From positions 248,001-312,000 of the forward strand of contig JADLAY010000024.1 in the NCBI GenBank assembly GCA_020849765.1: 64,000 bases of DNA. Direction: 5' to 3'. Both the position numbers and the translations under genes were made by a program. Origin of the DNA: Anaerolineae bacterium (GTDB taxonomy: Bacteria > Chloroflexota > Anaerolineae > Aggregatilineales > Phototrophicaceae). Positions 48,824-55,483 of this stretch are shown here, piece after piece. Each line of letters starts with the position of its first letter. The first letter of the stretch is position 1. The notes under the pieces were generated by a model. That model was not told the origin of the DNA. It worked only from the letters and a program-made list of their open reading frames with translations, and did not search any database.

Positions 48824-49558
48824 GTGCGCATCGTTACCGATGAGAAACTGGTCAGCCGCAATCGCAAACTGGCACAGTATTTGTTCTTCATCAGCTTTGG
48901 CTTGCTCGGCATCGGCTTGTTCGTCGCCGGGCGACAGATCCAACCGGAAAACGAAATTGACGTCGCTCTCGGCCTGATCCTGCCGCCGCTGATCCTGGTT
49001 CTGGCCTATGGGCTAACGTACTTCTCCGTGCGGACAACCAATCTGTGGGTGCGCCAGCCGCGCCCGGAGACGGCCATCGCCGAGGGCTTGAAGGGCCTCA
49101 GCTCAAAGTCTGTCCTCTACAACTACTACCACTTCCCCGCCCGCCACGTGCTGATCTGCCCGCAGGGCATCTTCGCCATGGTCACGCGGTATCAGGATGG
49201 GCGCTTCGTCAATCAGGGTGATAAGTGGCAGAAGCAGAGCGGCATCGGTGGCAAAATTGCCAGCCTGTTCCGCTTTGACTCAATTGGCAACCCGACGGCG
49301 GATGCGTATCGTGCAGCTCAGCACGTTCAGGGGATCTTCAAGAGTATGGGCAAGGATGTTGAAGTACAGCCATTGGTTGTCTTTGTCGATCCTCGTGTCA
49401 ATCTGGTAGTGAATGATCCTGTTGTACCCGTGTGTCATACCAACGTGAAACACGAGTTAAGTCTGAAACAGTACATCTACGATCTGGGGAAACCTCAGGC
49501 AATGCCGCTTACCCAGGAGGAACTCGACTCCTTTGAGGAACAGAGTGTGAAAGCGTAA
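48824..49558 (+). CDS. Membrane protein with NERD-like domain
   Basis: A 244-residue protein from GTG 48824 with AAGAAGGG upstream. Two transmembrane helices (about 19-38 and 46-66) are followed by a soluble domain with ETAIAEGLKGL, HVLICPQGIFAMVTRYQDG and a YRAAQHVQGIFKSMG helix, a pattern like NERD (nuclease-related) domains. The core Asp/Glu/Lys catalytic set of active NERD nucleases is not obvious, so nuclease activity is uncertain. The terminator at 49646-49677 serves it and possibly the convergent SPFH gene. Confidence 0.65.
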   Translation: MRIVTDEKLVSRNRKLAQYLFFISFGLLGIGLFVAGRQIQPENEIDVALGLILPPLILVLAYGLTYFSVRTTNLWVRQPRPETAIAEGLKGLSSKSVLYNYYHFPARHVLICPQGIFAMVTRYQDGRFVNQGDKWQKQSGIGGKIASLFRFDSIGNPTADAYRAAQHVQGIFKSMGKDVEVQPLVVFVDPRVNLVVNDPVVPVCHTNVKHELSLKQYIYDLGKPQAMPLTQEELDSFEEQSVKA

Positions 49559-49610: not shown

Positions 49611-49625
49611 TCATGACTACGCGAA
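49611..49625. repeat. 15-bp direct repeat, copy 1 (flanks SPFH gene)
   Basis: TCATGACTACGCGAA, identical to 50845-50859. A third, degenerate copy ATGACTACACGAA lies at 49704-49716, immediately beside the SPFH stop. All are in the same orientation. Confidence 0.7.
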
Positions 49626-49645
49626 GCAACTGAGGATCAGGCATC

Positions 49646-49677
49646 AAAAAACGGAGGGCGAACATCCCTCCGTTTTC
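49646..49677. terminator. Bidirectional terminator between NERD-like and SPFH genes
   Basis: AAAACGGAGGG (49648-49658) pairs with CCCTCCGTTTT (49666-49676). Flanking A and T runs make it usable in both directions for the two convergent genes. Confidence 0.85.
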
Positions 49678-49718
49678 AATTCTCTCGTGAACGTCATTCA
49701 ATGATGACTACACGAAGT

Positions 49719-50813
49719 CTATTCCATTTCGGACAGCCGCTGCTGCCACTTCTCAACCAGACGGTTGTAGACCGCCTCCGAAATCTCGCCGTTTGCCAGC
49801 TTCATGTCGAGCGAGTCGAGCATCGCCTGGACTTCGGCTTTGGTCTGCGGTGAGGCGCTTGCAGCAGGCGAACTCTCAGTCTGCTGAGGCTGATTCTGGC
49901 CCTGATTCTGCGCGGCCATGTTGGTCATCATCTGCTGCATCATTAGCTGCTGCTGCATCAACTGGCGCTGCATCTCGGCCATATCCGGGTTGAGCGCCGC
50001 GCCGATCTGCTGGCCGACGCCCAGGCCGACACCCGCGCCTGCCAGCGCGCCGCCCATACCTTCGTTTTCCGCCGCTTTCTGGGCGATATTGAGCCGCTGC
50101 ACGCGCTCCCAGACGTCCAGGCTGACGTAATTGCGCAGTTCATCCAGCGACACATCGCCCTTCGCCTGGAACGGATTGGCTTCGAACGCCTTGATGCGCA
50201 GGCCCATGGCAGCGAACTTCTCGTTAACACGCGAAAGCAGCGCACCCTCGAGGTCGTTGAGCAGCCTGTTGGCATCGGGCACGCTCGCCGCGCCGGACTT
50301 CAGGATCAGATCGCTGATCTCGCCGAGCAGCATACTCTGGATGCGATCCTTGATGTCACGCAGGCGCACGACCGGCTTCCCAACGCCGTACTGCTTGACG
50401 AAGCGCATCGCTTCGTCGACGCCGATGTCGATCACGCCGTGGGTGATCAGCAGGACGACGCCCATACCACGCCCTGGCGTCTCCATCACAATCGGCGGGT
50501 TCGTCCCCCACCCTACCTGCGGCATGTCCTTCAGATTGACGAAATACAGATCCGCCGTGAACGGGGTGCGCCCGCTCGTCGCCAGGCCGATCAGGCCCGA
50601 CAGGATCGGCAGGTTGGCGGTCGACAGTGTGTGCCTGCCCGGCCCCAGCACGTCGAGGGCTTCCCCACCCCGGACGAAGACCGCCGCCTGGCTTTCGCCC
50701 ACGATCACCTGCGACCCCATGCGCCAGTCGCCGCTGCCTTCCTGCGGCTCACGATAGGCCAGTTCGTCGTCCAATACGTTGACGTGATCGATGACGTCGA
50801 TAATACGCGGCAT
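49719..50813 (-). CDS. SPFH-domain protein (virion core protein/YdjI-like) with SHOCT-like tail
   Basis: A 364-residue protein. The N-terminal SPFH/band-7 region (about 25-235) has SQVIVGESQAAVFVRGGEA, GPGRHTLSTANLPIL and KFAAMGLRIKAFEANPF, as in the YdjI subgroup annotated as virion core protein-like. A Gly-rich segment, a Met/Gln-rich stretch (MQRQLMQQQLMMQQMM) and a C-terminal SHOCT-like helix pair (MLDSLDMKLANGEISEAVYN) follow. There is no transmembrane helix. In Bacillus, YdjI takes part in envelope-stress localisation. It is the last gene of a four-gene minus-strand run and is bracketed by 15-bp repeats. Confidence 0.85.
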   Translation of the reverse strand: MPRIIDVIDHVNVLDDELAYREPQEGSGDWRMGSQVIVGESQAAVFVRGGEALDVLGPGRHTLSTANLPILSGLIGLATSGRTPFTADLYFVNLKDMPQVGWGTNPPIVMETPGRGMGVVLLITHGVIDIGVDEAMRFVKQYGVGKPVVRLRDIKDRIQSMLLGEISDLILKSGAASVPDANRLLNDLEGALLSRVNEKFAAMGLRIKAFEANPFQAKGDVSLDELRNYVSLDVWERVQRLNIAQKAAENEGMGGALAGAGVGLGVGQQIGAALNPDMAEMQRQLMQQQLMMQQMMTNMAAQNQGQNQPQQTESSPAASASPQTKAEVQAMLDSLDMKLANGEISEAVYNRLVEKWQQRLSEME

Positions 50814-50844
50814 TGAAACCCCCTTGCGTTTCAGAATGATTGGT

Positions 50845-50859
50845 TCATGACTACGCGAA
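50845..50859. repeat. 15-bp direct repeat, copy 2
   Basis: TCATGACTACGCGAA in the 48-bp gap between the SPFH start and the upstream gene. The preceding TTGG(T) is also shared with the copy at 49611. Confidence 0.7.
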
Positions 50860-50861
50860 AC

Positions 50862-51395
50862 TTATTTATCCTGAGCGATCTGCGTGATGACGTCGTCACG
50901 CAGCTTGAAGGCTTCATTCGCCTCGACGGCCAGTTGATCGAGCGAGTCGATGGCGTCGGTCACGCCGCTATTCTCGCGCACAGCGCTGTCGAGCGCGGTC
51001 AGTGCTTCGTCCAACCGGTCGACGAACCGAAGCTGCGCCTCGTCGAAGCTGTAGAGATGCTCCAGCGCCATGGCGTCGACCTTCTTCAGCTCGAAGAAGC
51101 CCTGGTAACCCGGCGCAGCCGCCTTGACCCGGTCGTGATACGTCTGCCACTTGGTGCGCGCACTTTCGAAATCACTCATCTTCGAGAGGCCACCCTCGGT
51201 ATCCACCAGACGCTTGCCGATTTGCGCCATCCGTGCCAGCCGCGTCGCCACTTCCGCTGATACGTGATCGCGGATCATGCGGTCGGCAGCGCGCCGCGCT
51301 GTCAGGTCGAGATAGCCGGTGAAACCGGGTATCCGCTTCATCAGACCGGGCAACGCATCGCGCTGGCTGACGATCCGCTCGTAGAGGTCACTCAT
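50862..51395 (-). CDS. Helical hypothetical protein in SPFH operon
   Basis: About 177 residues from ATG 51395, which has a perfect AAGGAG 8 nt upstream. It is predicted almost entirely alpha-helical and soluble, with heptad-like stretches (LRFVDRLDEALTALDSAV) and a conserved-looking start (SDLYERIVSQRDALPGLMKR). No family is recognised. It lies 48 bp upstream of the SPFH gene on the same strand, so it is a plausible partner of the SPFH assembly. Confidence 0.72.
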   Translation of the reverse strand: MSDLYERIVSQRDALPGLMKRIPGFTGYLDLTARRAADRMIRDHVSAEVATRLARMAQIGKRLVDTEGGLSKMSDFESARTKWQTYHDRVKAAAPGYQGFFELKKVDAMALEHLYSFDEAQLRFVDRLDEALTALDSAVRENSGVTDAIDSLDQLAVEANEAFKLRDDVITQIAQDK

Positions 51396-51481
51396 GCACA
51401 AAACTCCTTTGAGAACAGAAGCAGATTCATTTTACCCCGGAAAGCATGCATCGAATCCCCCTTAAACATGGGGAATCCACC

Positions 51482-52000
51482 TCAGCCGACGAAGTACTCC
51501 GTCCCGCAGAAGCGGCAGGTGACGACACCCTTACCGGAGATCTTGAGTTCGCCGCCGCAGTTCTTGCATTTATCGAGCTTGCGCAGCTCCTGGGCTTGCA
51601 TCGAATACAACGTGCCCTCGTCCCAGTTGATGTAACCACTGAAGACTTGCAGGCCGACGAGCTGGTGCACGAGATCCTTGATTTCGGTGACGGGCACGCT
51701 CAATTCCATGGCGACGTCGGCAATATCGACCTGGCCGCGGCTGCGCACGATGTCCATCAGCCGCCGCTGCTTGCGCATGACCGTCTCCTGCTGCGATTCG
51801 GTACCGCCGCGCACGTACAGGAAGATGCCCACGCCGACCAGAATCGCAACCGGGATGAAGGCGATCCCGGCGCCGAGCACCGCCCCATCCGCTTCCAGCG
51901 CGCCCGCCTGCGTTTGCGTCGCCAACCACAGCCCGGCGATCACTGCGATGCCGAGACCGGCCACGGAAAGTATGACGCCGAACAGACGATTACCATTCAT
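51482..52000 (-). CDS. Membrane protein with winged-helix-like and zinc-ribbon domains
   Basis: A 172-residue protein with two transmembrane helices (about 5-27 and 42-64), then a helical segment resembling a winged helix (MRKQRRLMDIVRSRGQVDIA). The C-terminal zinc ribbon has CKNCGG and CRFC. The soluble part is cytoplasmic if the N-terminus is inside. The function is unknown. It lies 30 bp after the DUF2207 gene and before the helical and SPFH genes. Confidence 0.72.
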   Translation of the reverse strand: MNGNRLFGVILSVAGLGIAVIAGLWLATQTQAGALEADGAVLGAGIAFIPVAILVGVGIFLYVRGGTESQQETVMRKQRRLMDIVRSRGQVDIADVAMELSVPVTEIKDLVHQLVGLQVFSGYINWDEGTLYSMQAQELRKLDKCKNCGGELKISGKGVVTCRFCGTEYFVG

Positions 52001-52030
52001 TCACTGCCTCCACATTATTGTCGAAGTGCA

Positions 52031-53959
52031 TCATCCAAAGCCACGGCTGCCGCCACCACTGCCACCGCCGCCGCTGAAGCCGCCGCCGCTCCAACTGCTG
52101 CCACCGCTGCTCCAGCGACCGCTGCCGCCGGATTGCTGTGGTCGGCTCGTCATCACGCGCGAAGCAGAATTGAGCATCGTCGTCAGGCTGGACGACATCT
52201 CGCTCAGCCCGCGCGCCATCTGACCGGACAGATCGCCGAGCGAGCCATCACCGGCCCGCGCCAGATCGCCGGGCAGGCCGCCTCGACTGCTCAGATCACG
52301 CGGGAAAGCACTGCCGGGGATGTAGCCACGGCTGTAGGGGCCACCCCAATGACGCGGAAAATACCAGGGCGGCAGCGGCGCGTACGTCACTTCGTTGAAG
52401 TGGCGGAACCAGGTCTGCTCGATGCCGAACGCGACAGCGTACGGGATGTACTCCGCCAGCCGATCCGCCGCGTTCTGCACGTCGTCATAAGATTCCAGAT
52501 TGCGCAGATACTGGCGGAAGGCGTTCCACTTGGCCGCTTCCTCCGCGCCCTTGCGTGTCTTGGCAGGCATGACCGAACTAAGCACCAGCATGACGACACC
52601 GACGATGCCGATCGCGATTGGTAGTGCAACTAGGGCCTCGCTGACGCGACTGGCGCTGCTCACGAAGAAAAAGATGAGCAGGAAAGCCAGTACGACCACA
52701 GCGCCACCGCCCATGCCCCAGGCCGTGCGCACACTCTGCGGCGAGCGCTCGAAGAACCCCTCCTTGACTGCCTCGTCGTAGAGGCTGTTCTGGATCTTCG
52801 GGATGACGGTGTAGAAGCGGTTGCGCAGCGAGTCCATCGTCCGTTCCATGCGGCTGCCGGTAAACAGATGCTCCAGCAGTTCCGCCTCGTATTCACGCAG
52901 GCCGGTCGGCGGCTTGTCCGTCCGCTTGAAGGTAAAGGTGCTCTTCGAGCCGATGCCGAGGAAGCCCTCGGTCTGATCTTCCTCGATCACGAGATAGCCG
53001 CGCTGCCCGAGATCGAGAATCGTCGACAGCACATCGCGCACGTCCGCGCGCTCATCCACCAACGTGCCCGCGACCGCCGCAGGCAAATCCGACGGCGGCT
53101 CGCTCAGGTATTCCGGCACGACGCCGATTTCCGGGTCGCGCCCATGGGTCCGATAGCGCACGATCATCCATAGCGAACCGCCGAGGCTGATCAGCAGCGA
53201 GCCTGCGCAGACGGCCAGCGTCACCAGCGGGCGTGTTTGCTCGTCGTAGGTACGCTGTACGTCGAACTGGCTCTGCCAGGAGGGCGCGTTCGCCTCCGGA
53301 TTGTGCGGGTACTGCACACGGATGCCGAACGATTCGTACGGCCCCACCCCATTAATTGCTGATGCCGTGACGACACTGCCCTTCACGTCAACTTCGCCGG
53401 CCGCACCATACGTCTCGACTGGATCAACGCCCTCGCGCGGCGCATAGGCCTGTGGCAGTTCGACCGTGATCGATGCACTGCCGATGCCAAAGCCAAAGTG
53501 CTCGTCGGGGATGGCATCCCACCACAGTTGGTCGCCACCGTTGTAGATGCGCAGCGCGCCGTTGACCGTGTAACTGATCTCGAAGTGCCGGGTGGTGTTG
53601 TAGACCGGCTGCGTGAAGTAGTACGTGATCGAAAGCTCGCCGCTCGATCGTTCGACGCAATAGGTGCCTGCGCGCTCGGCGCACTGCTGGCTGAGCGGCG
53701 TCTCGCCGTCGTAGACTTGAATATTGGCGATCGAGTCGAGCCGGTCGGTCGGGATGACCGCCGAGCCAAAGGTAAATCGTCCATCAAAACGCACGTCGTA
53801 GATCTCGCGCACATCGAATTGATTGCGCGCGGTATCGACGTTATCAATCATCACATCCCAGCGATTCCAGAACACTGAGCGCGTCTGCGCCTGGGCCGGT
53901 GCGACCAGCACCAGCGCACACACTGCAAAGACACATGCGCTCAGCAGGCGCTTCATCAT
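52031..53959 (-). CDS. DUF2207 membrane protein
   Basis: About 642 residues from ATG 53959 (or 53956) with GGAGGA upstream. Longer in-frame codons are antisense to the LysM gene and are rejected. After the signal peptide comes an extracytoplasmic DUF2207 domain (about 25-225; RNQFDVREIYDVRFDG), one transmembrane helix (about 248-270), a cytoplasmic region (VLSTILDLGQRGYLVIEED), a further helix pair (about 413-462) and a Gly/Ser-rich tail ending in a GGGF/GGGSGGG pattern. This is the standard DUF2207 layout. The function is unknown, and in other bacteria it is often near LemA or SPFH genes. Confidence 0.88.
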   Translation of the reverse strand: MMKRLLSACVFAVCALVLVAPAQAQTRSVFWNRWDVMIDNVDTARNQFDVREIYDVRFDGRFTFGSAVIPTDRLDSIANIQVYDGETPLSQQCAERAGTYCVERSSGELSITYYFTQPVYNTTRHFEISYTVNGALRIYNGGDQLWWDAIPDEHFGFGIGSASITVELPQAYAPREGVDPVETYGAAGEVDVKGSVVTASAINGVGPYESFGIRVQYPHNPEANAPSWQSQFDVQRTYDEQTRPLVTLAVCAGSLLISLGGSLWMIVRYRTHGRDPEIGVVPEYLSEPPSDLPAAVAGTLVDERADVRDVLSTILDLGQRGYLVIEEDQTEGFLGIGSKSTFTFKRTDKPPTGLREYEAELLEHLFTGSRMERTMDSLRNRFYTVIPKIQNSLYDEAVKEGFFERSPQSVRTAWGMGGGAVVVLAFLLIFFFVSSASRVSEALVALPIAIGIVGVVMLVLSSVMPAKTRKGAEEAAKWNAFRQYLRNLESYDDVQNAADRLAEYIPYAVAFGIEQTWFRHFNEVTYAPLPPWYFPRHWGGPYSRGYIPGSAFPRDLSSRGGLPGDLARAGDGSLGDLSGQMARGLSEMSSSLTTMLNSASRVMTSRPQQSGGSGRWSSGGSSWSGGGFSGGGGSGGGSRGFG

Positions 53960-54055: not shown

Positions 54056-54100
54056 GTGTACAGCCTCATCGCGCCGCGCACGTTCAGGAGCTTTTGTCCC

Positions 54101-55483
54101 ATGCGCAAGACGCTCAGCCGGAACAGTCTCTCCAGCCTCATCACTCTCGCCATGCTCTTCAGCTTCGCTTTGCTGCCCGCCGCCGCTCAATCGACACCGA
54201 CGAATGAGCCGGGCACGCCAGCGCCACAAGCAACCGATGCGCCGACGCCCGCACCCACCGAAGCCCAGACGACCTACACCGTCCAGCGCGGCGACACGCT
54301 CAACCGCATCGCCACACGCTTCGGGACGACCGTCAGTGCGCTGATTGAGGCTAACAAGCTCACGAATGCCAATCTCATCCATCCCGGTCTAGAGCTTGTC
54401 ATCCCAGGGGCACCTGCGCCAACCCAAATTCCTGGGGTAACCCCCGCCCCGGCGGCCAGCGTCACGACCGGCATCGCAGCGTATTTTGCCGGTCAGGACG
54501 CAGCCGATGTCGTCACTCAAATCGAGCGTCTGAACGTGTCGTGGGTCAAAGTCGAGGTGTTGTGGCATGACGTCGAGCCTGAGCCAGGCGAATATGCCTT
54601 TGACCAGCTTGACGCAGTTGTCGACGCGCTGGCGCAATCCGAATTACACATCCTGTTCACCGTCTGGGCGGCGCCGGATTGGGCGCGCAGCAGCGCCGAA
54701 GAAAATGGCCCACCGGATGATTTCAGCGCTTACGCAGGCTTTGTCCGTCTGCTGGCGGATCGCTATTCTGGCCGGGTGGATGCTTACGAGATCTGGAGCG
54801 AGCCGAATTTGCGCCGCCAGTGGAACAACCCGACGCATGGCATCAGCGCGGCCAGCTATGCTGACCTGCTGCGCCCGGCCTACGCCGCGATCAAAGCCGG
54901 TGATCCGGACGCCCTCGTCATCAGCGCCGGGCTGGCGCCAACCGGTTTCAACGACGGCGTCAACGCTATCGACGACCGTCTCTTCTTGCGCGATCTGTAC
55001 GTGAGTGGGCTGGCAGATATCAGCGACGCGGTCGGTGCGCATCCGGGCGGCTGGGCCAACCCGCCGGACGCCCGCTGCTGCGATCAACCGGAAGGCGTCG
55101 ACACGCACTATGACAGCCGCAGCTTCTTCTTCCTGGATACGCTGGCCGATTACCATCAGATCATGGTCGAGAGCGGCGACGCGGCAACGCCGATCTGGGT
55201 GACGCGCTTCGGCTGGGGATCGAGCGAGGACACGACCCCGCCGCCGGCGATCAACATTTTCTACAGCTACACCAGCCTGAGCGAACAGGCCACTTACACG
55301 CCGCGCGCGCTCGAACTCGGTGCGGAACTCGGCTACGTCGGCGCCATGTTCGTCGACAACCTGAACGGCTGCATCGCTGTACCGGATGACGCCGAAGCCT
55401 GCTACACCAGCCTGCTCGATCCGTCCGGGCAGCCGCGACCAGTCTACGACGCGCTCGCCAACCGCGTCGTAGCAGAGGGATAG
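54101..55483 (+). CDS. Secreted LysM protein with glycoside hydrolase-like (clan A) domain
   Basis: A 460-residue exported protein. ATG 54101 has AGGAG 10 nt upstream and a signal peptide ending near PAAAQ. A LysM domain (about 59-103, YTVQRGDTLNRIATRFG) is followed by a TIM-barrel domain (about 125-455). The acid/base motif is YEIWSEPN (Glu234). At the usual nucleophile position in W-V-T-E-F-G-W, this protein reads WVTRFGWGS, with Arg369 in place of Glu. It may therefore be a non-catalytic wall- or glycan-binding protein. It is divergent from the DUF2207 gene. Confidence 0.82.
   Translation: MRKTLSRNSLSSLITLAMLFSFALLPAAAQSTPTNEPGTPAPQATDAPTPAPTEAQTTYTVQRGDTLNRIATRFGTTVSALIEANKLTNANLIHPGLELVIPGAPAPTQIPGVTPAPAASVTTGIAAYFAGQDAADVVTQIERLNVSWVKVEVLWHDVEPEPGEYAFDQLDAVVDALAQSELHILFTVWAAPDWARSSAEENGPPDDFSAYAGFVRLLADRYSGRVDAYEIWSEPNLRRQWNNPTHGISAASYADLLRPAYAAIKAGDPDALVISAGLAPTGFNDGVNAIDDRLFLRDLYVSGLADISDAVGAHPGGWANPPDARCCDQPEGVDTHYDSRSFFFLDTLADYHQIMVESGDAATPIWVTRFGWGSSEDTTPPPAINIFYSYTSLSEQATYTPRALELGAELGYVGAMFVDNLNGCIAVPDDAEACYTSLLDPSGQPRPVYDALANRVVAEG

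Follow-up and report, generated by a model that had tools for sequence, protein, structure and literature searches.

Four neighbouring genes of an Anaerolineae bacterium (Chloroflexota, Phototrophicaceae; contig JADLAY010000024.1 of assembly GCA_020849765.1) raise the question of whether their products act together at the cell membrane and, if so, in which capacity. The genes are located in the window analysed here, i.e., the whole stretch of 64,000 nucleotides from position 248,001 to 312,000 of the contig, and encode, in the order of the minus strand, a DUF2207 membrane protein, a small membrane protein with a winged helix and a zinc ribbon (ZNR), a helical protein (HEL), and an SPFH protein of the YdjI type; ZNR and HEL are labels coined in this analysis. 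The original prediction, derived from the letters of the window, had described four genes on one strand with gaps of 30, 86, and 48 bp, which holds for strand, position, and spacing, and had seen in them a membrane-domain scaffold with a regulator, perhaps for envelope stress. The scaffold part of this proposal fits the PF13421-type SPFH protein, the analogy to YdjI as described in PMC8581546, and the linkage to PspA and DUF4178 in other genomes. We regard it as moderately probable that the cluster encodes a sub-membrane scaffold for envelope maintenance resembling the phage shock protein (PSP) system, by analogy with PspA-YdjGHI of Bacillus. HEL, an undescribed partner family beside YdjI-type SPFH proteins, is the main new element.

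HEL and SPFH as a conserved pair

HEL is present in 51 of the 61 genomes of the genus, family, and order. Fifty HEL loci of these relatives, the window's own being left out, were mapped with profiles, and in 49 of them the SPFH gene follows HEL directly on the same strand at a distance of at most 150 bp, the 50th coinciding with a contig end. Upstream, ZNR is found in 37 and DUF2207 in 30 of the loci, and the four-gene order, on whose conservation in related genomes the original prediction had been staked, is kept in 29, a degree of conservation well beyond chance. In all order counts, HEL and SPFH may be as much as 2.5 kb apart, ZNR and HEL 2.7 kb, and DUF2207 and HEL 4 kb. Across 400 drawn Chloroflexota genomes HEL occurs in 65, made up of 54/58 from the same class and 11/342 from outside it (counted by eye). 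Forty of these 65 loci, including all 11 from outside the class, were fetched; SPFH lies downstream within 2.5 kb in 29, and all four genes are in order in 11, two of which (L116, L121) are outside the class. Furthermore, a Band_7_1 (PF13421) gene at E ≤ 1e-30, a cut picked after the list had been seen, is carried by 61/65 HEL-positive versus 9/335 HEL-negative genomes, and at E ≤ 1e-15 by 62/65 versus 29/335; the genomes compared are related and do not count as independent evidence, and the HEL, Band_7_1, and ZNR searches are assumed to cover one and the same draw, with which the handles agree. ZNR was detected at E < 1e-20 in 31 of the 400 genomes, 27 of them HEL-bearing.

The pair extends beyond the phylum. 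In a scan with the SPFH alignment, using one genome per species, SPFH is preceded by HEL in 53 of the 80 best-scoring loci (out of a larger number), with all four genes in order in 14 of the 53. According to the record titles of metagenome bins, from which the group names are taken, HEL-SPFH occurs in about nine phylum-level groups, including Chloroflexota, Armatimonadia, Eremiobacterota, Actinomycetes, Fermentibacteraceae and allies, Edwardsbacteria, Planctomycetota, Deltaproteobacteria, and Ignavibacteria. The 27 loci among the best 80 without HEL, mostly Bacillota, Planctomycetota, and Deltaproteobacteria by title, largely feature an SPFH type with other, zinc-ribbon neighbours (18 of the 27 read). 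The core unit is HEL-SPFH. It could be argued that such an arrangement reflects conserved synteny without any joint function, as gene order around the cluster is largely kept in the family, including NERD, SecD, kinase, and dGTPase genes. This seems very improbable indeed, given that the HEL-SPFH pair persists across groups while the other neighbours change, and that two loci titled Actinomycetes or Actinomycetota (L163, L181) hold the four genes in the permuted order HEL-SPFH-DUF2207-ZNR.

The HEL protein

No significant Pfam family was found for HEL. Its AlphaFold model predicts, with high confidence (Table 1), a four-helix bundle plus two short N-terminal helices, in agreement with the helical protein foreseen from the sequence. 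The family is marked by the motifs IPGFxGY and RRxADRxxR, and nine residues are invariant in 23 diverse members (P23, Y28, R35, D38, R42, G96, L111, D118, and R166), most of which fall into the IPGFxGY and RRxxDxxxR regions or lie close to a Y-x-x-D motif. All 23 proteins match NCBIfam NF047596 (LIMLP_15305 family) at E ≤ 0.1, with a best value of 5.9e-15, so that HEL adds to a family which is named, though uncharacterised. The similarity is of the superfamily level and covers the full length, residues 4-171 of the window HEL being aligned to positions 7-174 of the 175 in the profile; with 21.1 bits, however, the window protein stays far below the equivalog cut-off of 210. In the literature searched, LIMLP_15305 appears in one paper, merely as a neighbour in an RNA table. 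Comparison with PDB sequences gave no convincing relative of HEL. No fold identity was assigned, as the best PDB match, IncA (Z 12.9, root-mean-square deviation (rmsd) 3.1, 143 residues aligned, Foldseek E 0.033), lies within the background of unrelated helical bundles. Within one family of the class HEL is located apart from SPFH (L136, L137, L142-L145, L148), and in L137, L143, and L148 it sits between aldolase-like and xanthine dehydrogenase-like genes (names assigned by eye).

In this context one has to ask whether HEL replaces PspA, taking over, as an effector at the membrane, the place of PspA in the Bacillus pspA-ydjGHI cluster. HEL does accompany SPFH where the operon or the genome is devoid of PspA, and its short N-terminal helices precede a helical bundle. 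These helices, however, combine moderate hydrophobic moments with low hydrophobicity; the hhalign probability of 0.3 indicates no relation to PspA, and seven loci contain HEL and PspA next to each other. On the latter two grounds the idea that HEL is a divergent PspA was rejected, and a replacement of PspA by HEL is improbable. PspA and ESCRT-III were not among the best Foldseek matches listed for the HEL fold, an absence that carries no weight against an ESCRT-III fold.

The SPFH and DUF2207 proteins

The SPFH protein belongs to Band_7_1 (PF13421) with 109.3 bits against a cut-off of 24, and a search of PDB sequences returned no convincing relative. By eye, the protein shows no membrane helix and its C-terminus appears SHOCT-like, but Pfam gave no SHOCT match at E ≤ 1; of the YdjI/SPFH-SHOCT label originally assigned, the SPFH half is confirmed and the SHOCT half is not. 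The C-terminus varies by lineage, being SHOCT-like, or consisting of tandem zinc ribbons (L120, L123, L124), or of an excisionase-type helix-turn-helix (HTH), the latter matched by PF12728 at 3.9e-11 in L138; varied C-termini were noted in L115, L129, L138, L151, and others.

The DUF2207 protein exceeds the Pfam cut-offs in both domains, with 41.1 versus 24.4 bits for PF09972 and 149.5 versus 33 bits for PF20990 (DUF2207_C). A signal peptide, membrane helices, and a Gly-rich tail can be read from its sequence by eye, and the N-domain would be extracytoplasmic and DUF2207_C cytoplasmic. A DUF2207 mutant of Streptococcus mutans is sensitive to acid and peroxide according to PMC10457818, a phenotype compatible with a stress role, by analogy and in a different context. 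The view of all these families as orphans was thus half right: DUF2207 has this phenotype, and HEL matches a family that is named, though unstudied.

The winged helix of ZNR

The AlphaFold model of ZNR bears out the predicted two-helix membrane protein with winged-helix-like and zinc-ribbon domains; the second membrane helix continues into the winged helix, which is followed by the zinc ribbon (mean predicted local distance difference test (pLDDT) 86.3). Cys 145, Cys 148, Cys 162, and Cys 165 are invariant in 42 ZNR sequences. Comparison with PDB sequences gave no convincing relative, and in Pfam the window protein has sub-threshold zinc-ribbon, PCI, and winged HTH matches only, PCI reaching 17 bits versus a cut-off of 22. 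PCI is the family matched by most ZNR members (29/42, best 5.9e-6), and DDRGK is matched by 5/42 (best 6.7e-4). Along these lines, 46 of the 50 matches listed by Foldseek for the winged helix bear COP9, proteasome, UFL1-DDRGK1/E3-UFM1, or TREX-2 titles, at a weak best E of 4.2e-3, and a structural comparison (VIA) gave a Z of 7.7 with an rmsd of 2.0 over 76 aligned residues, which is not strong. In its predicted fold, and weakly in sequence, the winged helix resembles the PCI/DDRGK domains of the proteasome lid, the COP9 signalosome, and UFL1-DDRGK1, and DDRGK1 is likewise membrane-anchored. ZNR differs from these proteins in having neither an alpha-solenoid nor a UFM1 or proteasome context, and the E-values are marginal.

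The regulator of the original prediction would correspond to ZNR as a membrane-tethered transcription regulator, the operon then forming a sensor-regulator pair. A winged helix joined to a zinc ribbon, the excisionase-type HTH (PF12728) that some SPFH homologues carry, and a repeated intergenic motif near the genes all speak for such a role. Its recognition helix, however, contains one basic and two acidic residues, the net charge of the winged helix over 42 ZNR homologues ranges from -9 to +3 and is mostly zero or negative, and the closest matches, by fold as well as by family, are PCI/DDRGK interaction domains. A PCI/DDRGK-like winged helix with a recognition helix that lacks basic character makes DNA binding by a regulator unlikely and favours protein binding; the regulator is thus not supported, and the sensor-regulator pair as a whole appears quite improbable.

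A proposed PSP-like platform at the membrane

A direct link to the PSP system is found in seven loci, in which a PspA gene (PF04012 at E ≤ 1e-46 in every case) lies between HEL and SPFH (L120, L123, L124, L154, L167, L169, L174). HEL is longer in these loci, and of the three checked, two are fused to DUF4178 (L167 1.5e-18 and L169 2.8e-21, above cut-off) and the third, L154, matches it just below the cut-off; DUF4178 is a PSP-operon partner according to PMC11237479. In L248, furthermore, PspA is grouped on one strand with DUF2207 and a ZNR-type membrane module that carries DUF4178 as a fusion. A ZNR-type two-helix module fused to DUF4178 is also found beside DUF2207 in other Chloroflexota (L246, L247). 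As the three-sequence PspA profile misses the divergent PspA of the window's genome, the seven loci are a minimum for PspA beside HEL.

In the PSP-like scaffold favoured here, DUF2207 with its extracytoplasmic domain and ZNR with its two membrane helices would act as membrane anchors and possibly as sensors, whereas the winged helix and zinc ribbon of ZNR would face the cytoplasm and bind partners. SPFH would oligomerise on this DUF2207/ZNR platform, with HEL as its usual adaptor, and the scaffold may then stabilise the membrane, or hold PspA where PspA is present. PspA could be a client of the platform, as it is with YdjI in B. subtilis, and in some lineages the platform might run without PspA.

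Several observations weigh against this proposal. Eleven of the 40 HEL loci fetched from the phylum draw are without an adjacent SPFH gene; nine of these genomes carry a strong Band_7_1 gene elsewhere and two have weak matches only, and eight of the 11 loci come from one family, with HEL located elsewhere. ZNR and DUF2207 are frequently absent, and the partner proteins are unlike YdjG and YdjH in domain make-up. L250 keeps DUF2207-ZNR-SPFH without HEL; it is one of four read among the nine SPFH-positive, HEL-negative genomes, the others showing DUF2207 plus SPFH (L249) or other neighbours (L251, L252), so that HEL is dispensable in some lineages. The operon of the window contains no PspA, and the genome's own divergent PspA stands alone on contig 34, away from the operon (contig 24). 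In the relatives, none of the contigs with HEL showed a PspA gene closer to it than 300 kb (place lists compared by eye; many contigs are short). PspA (PF04012) is present in 55 of the 61 relatives, and a second profile, built to cover the divergent form as well, again gave no match in the six PspA-less ones but did detect it in the three control genomes. Five HEL-bearing relatives (G037, G041, G044, G055, and G060) are devoid of PspA with both profiles, yet the four-gene operon is complete in every one of them (L080, L076, L071, L079, and L081). Either the platform is independent of PspA there, or its partner in these genomes was not recognised.

These five genomes lend themselves to a different explanation, namely a flotillin-like microdomain scaffold that is independent of PspA, in which SPFH-HEL assemblies would organise membrane proteins or fluidity and the PspA linkage would be a later add-on. 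PspA is adjacent in only seven of the fetched HEL loci, and the exchange of zinc ribbons, excisionase-type HTH, and SHOCT-like ends at the SPFH C-terminus would be expected of a general adaptor platform. On the other hand, HEL proteins encoded next to PspA can carry a fused DUF4178, a domain of PSP operons, and DUF2207 plus the ZNR-type module stand beside PspA even without HEL in L248, which makes an originally PspA-independent microdomain scaffold rather unlikely. As for the PSP-like scaffold, an obligate link to PspA is weakened by the five PspA-less operon genomes, and PspA as an optional component is the best reading.

Relation to known PSP systems

PF13421 also matches in the B. subtilis genome, in a protein which we take to be YdjI. 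The cluster of the window shares with pspA-ydjGHI a YdjI-type SPFH gene and two genes for membrane proteins, of which one has zinc ribbon(s), and in some Chloroflexota PspA is part of the cluster; it differs in the absence of PspA and in the extra HEL gene. As stated in PMC8581546, recruitment of PspA to the membrane in B. subtilis requires the SPFH protein YdjI together with the membrane proteins YdjG and YdjH. YdjH has a TPM domain, in place of which the window operon has DUF2207, with no TPM match at E ≤ 1 in Pfam; YdjG features two zinc ribbons, an NTF2-like domain, and one membrane segment, in contrast to the two membrane helices, PCI-like winged helix, and single ribbon of ZNR (YdjG and YdjH as given in PMC11237479). 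The DUF4178 PSP operons of the same paper likewise have DUF4178 beside PspA, the domain being fused here to HEL or to the ZNR-type module; HEL, this SPFH type, and ZNR are not described alongside in the portion available, and a spermidine-synthase operon was not seen here. Neither PMC8581546 nor PMC9239133 nor PMC11237479 uses the term DUF2207 in its main text, and the four-gene set was not found in the literature searched on PspA, SPFH, YdjI, DUF2207, DUF4178, and PCI, a search outside which most subscription papers lie.

Organization of the locus

The features of the locus are compiled in Table 1. The start codon of HEL is ATG, preceded by AGGAG. A strong hairpin followed by a T-run is located 3' of SPFH, seen by folding (z -3.7), whereas the scanner missed it; a scan for sigma-70 promoters gave matches no commoner than in shuffles. 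Of the five copies of the motif TTCGYRTAGTCAT in the genome (6.35 Mb), three surround the SPFH gene in non-coding DNA. Its 12-base core yields 30 matches in the relatives' loci, mostly in the gaps between genes or behind them, versus 7 in one shuffle.

Table 1. Features of the four-gene locus (window coordinates)
Feature	Position	Strand	Description
DUF2207 membrane protein	52031..53959	-	642 aa; Pfam PF20990 1.8e-43, PF09972 2.9e-10
ZNR	51482..52000	-	172 aa; two membrane helices, PCI/DDRGK-like winged helix, C4 zinc ribbon
Winged-helix part of ZNR, about residues 74-140	51581..51781	-	AlphaFold model, Foldseek, Pfam family matches
HEL	50862..51395	-	177 aa; predicted four-helix bundle, AF2 pLDDT 93.1
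YdjI-type SPFH (Band_7_1) protein	49719..50813	-	364 aa; PF13421 2.6e-31, residues 29-212
Intergenic motif TTCGCGTAGTCATGA, HEL-SPFH gap	50845..50859	-	
Intergenic motif TTCGTGTAGTCATCA, directly past SPFH stop	49702..49716	-	
Intrinsic terminator closing the unit	49640..49685	-	fold -18.3 kcal/mol, z -3.69
Intergenic motif TTCGCGTAGTCATGA, past terminator	49611..49625	-	

Upstream of the operon and divergent from it, a secreted protein with LysM and a glycoside-hydrolase-like part is encoded at 54056-55483 (plus), and 21 of the 50 relatives' loci have a LysM/glycoside-hydrolase-like gene in divergent orientation no more than 4.5 kb from HEL. At the other end, a NERD-domain membrane protein (6.4e-7) is encoded convergently at 48824-49558 (plus), an orientation kept in many relatives, often at 2 kb more distance. 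PADLOC, applied to the four proteins, returned nothing meaningful as a known anti-phage system.

Implications

With the PSP-like scaffold as a working model, the Pfam-less HEL and two orphan membrane families gain a shared context and a concrete hypothesis, and YdjI-type SPFH proteins gain a probable partner family across many bacterial groups. PSP-like platforms may run without PspA. DUF2207 proteins are also present in well-known bacteria, so that the result reaches past the Chloroflexota. A bolder version, distinctly unlikely at present, would have HEL-SPFH as the widespread core of a membrane-maintenance machine capable of working independently of PspA and tethered by a true PCI/DDRGK-type winged-helix protein, the bacterial counterpart of those eukaryotic and archaeal membrane-anchored winged-helix adaptors, such as DDRGK1 and the ESCRT winged-helix proteins, that nucleate membrane assemblies; PspA, an ESCRT-III relative, would then be an optional effector. 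The PCI/DDRGK-like winged helix itself, should it prove real on a membrane anchor of bacteria, would bear on the origin of such adaptor domains.

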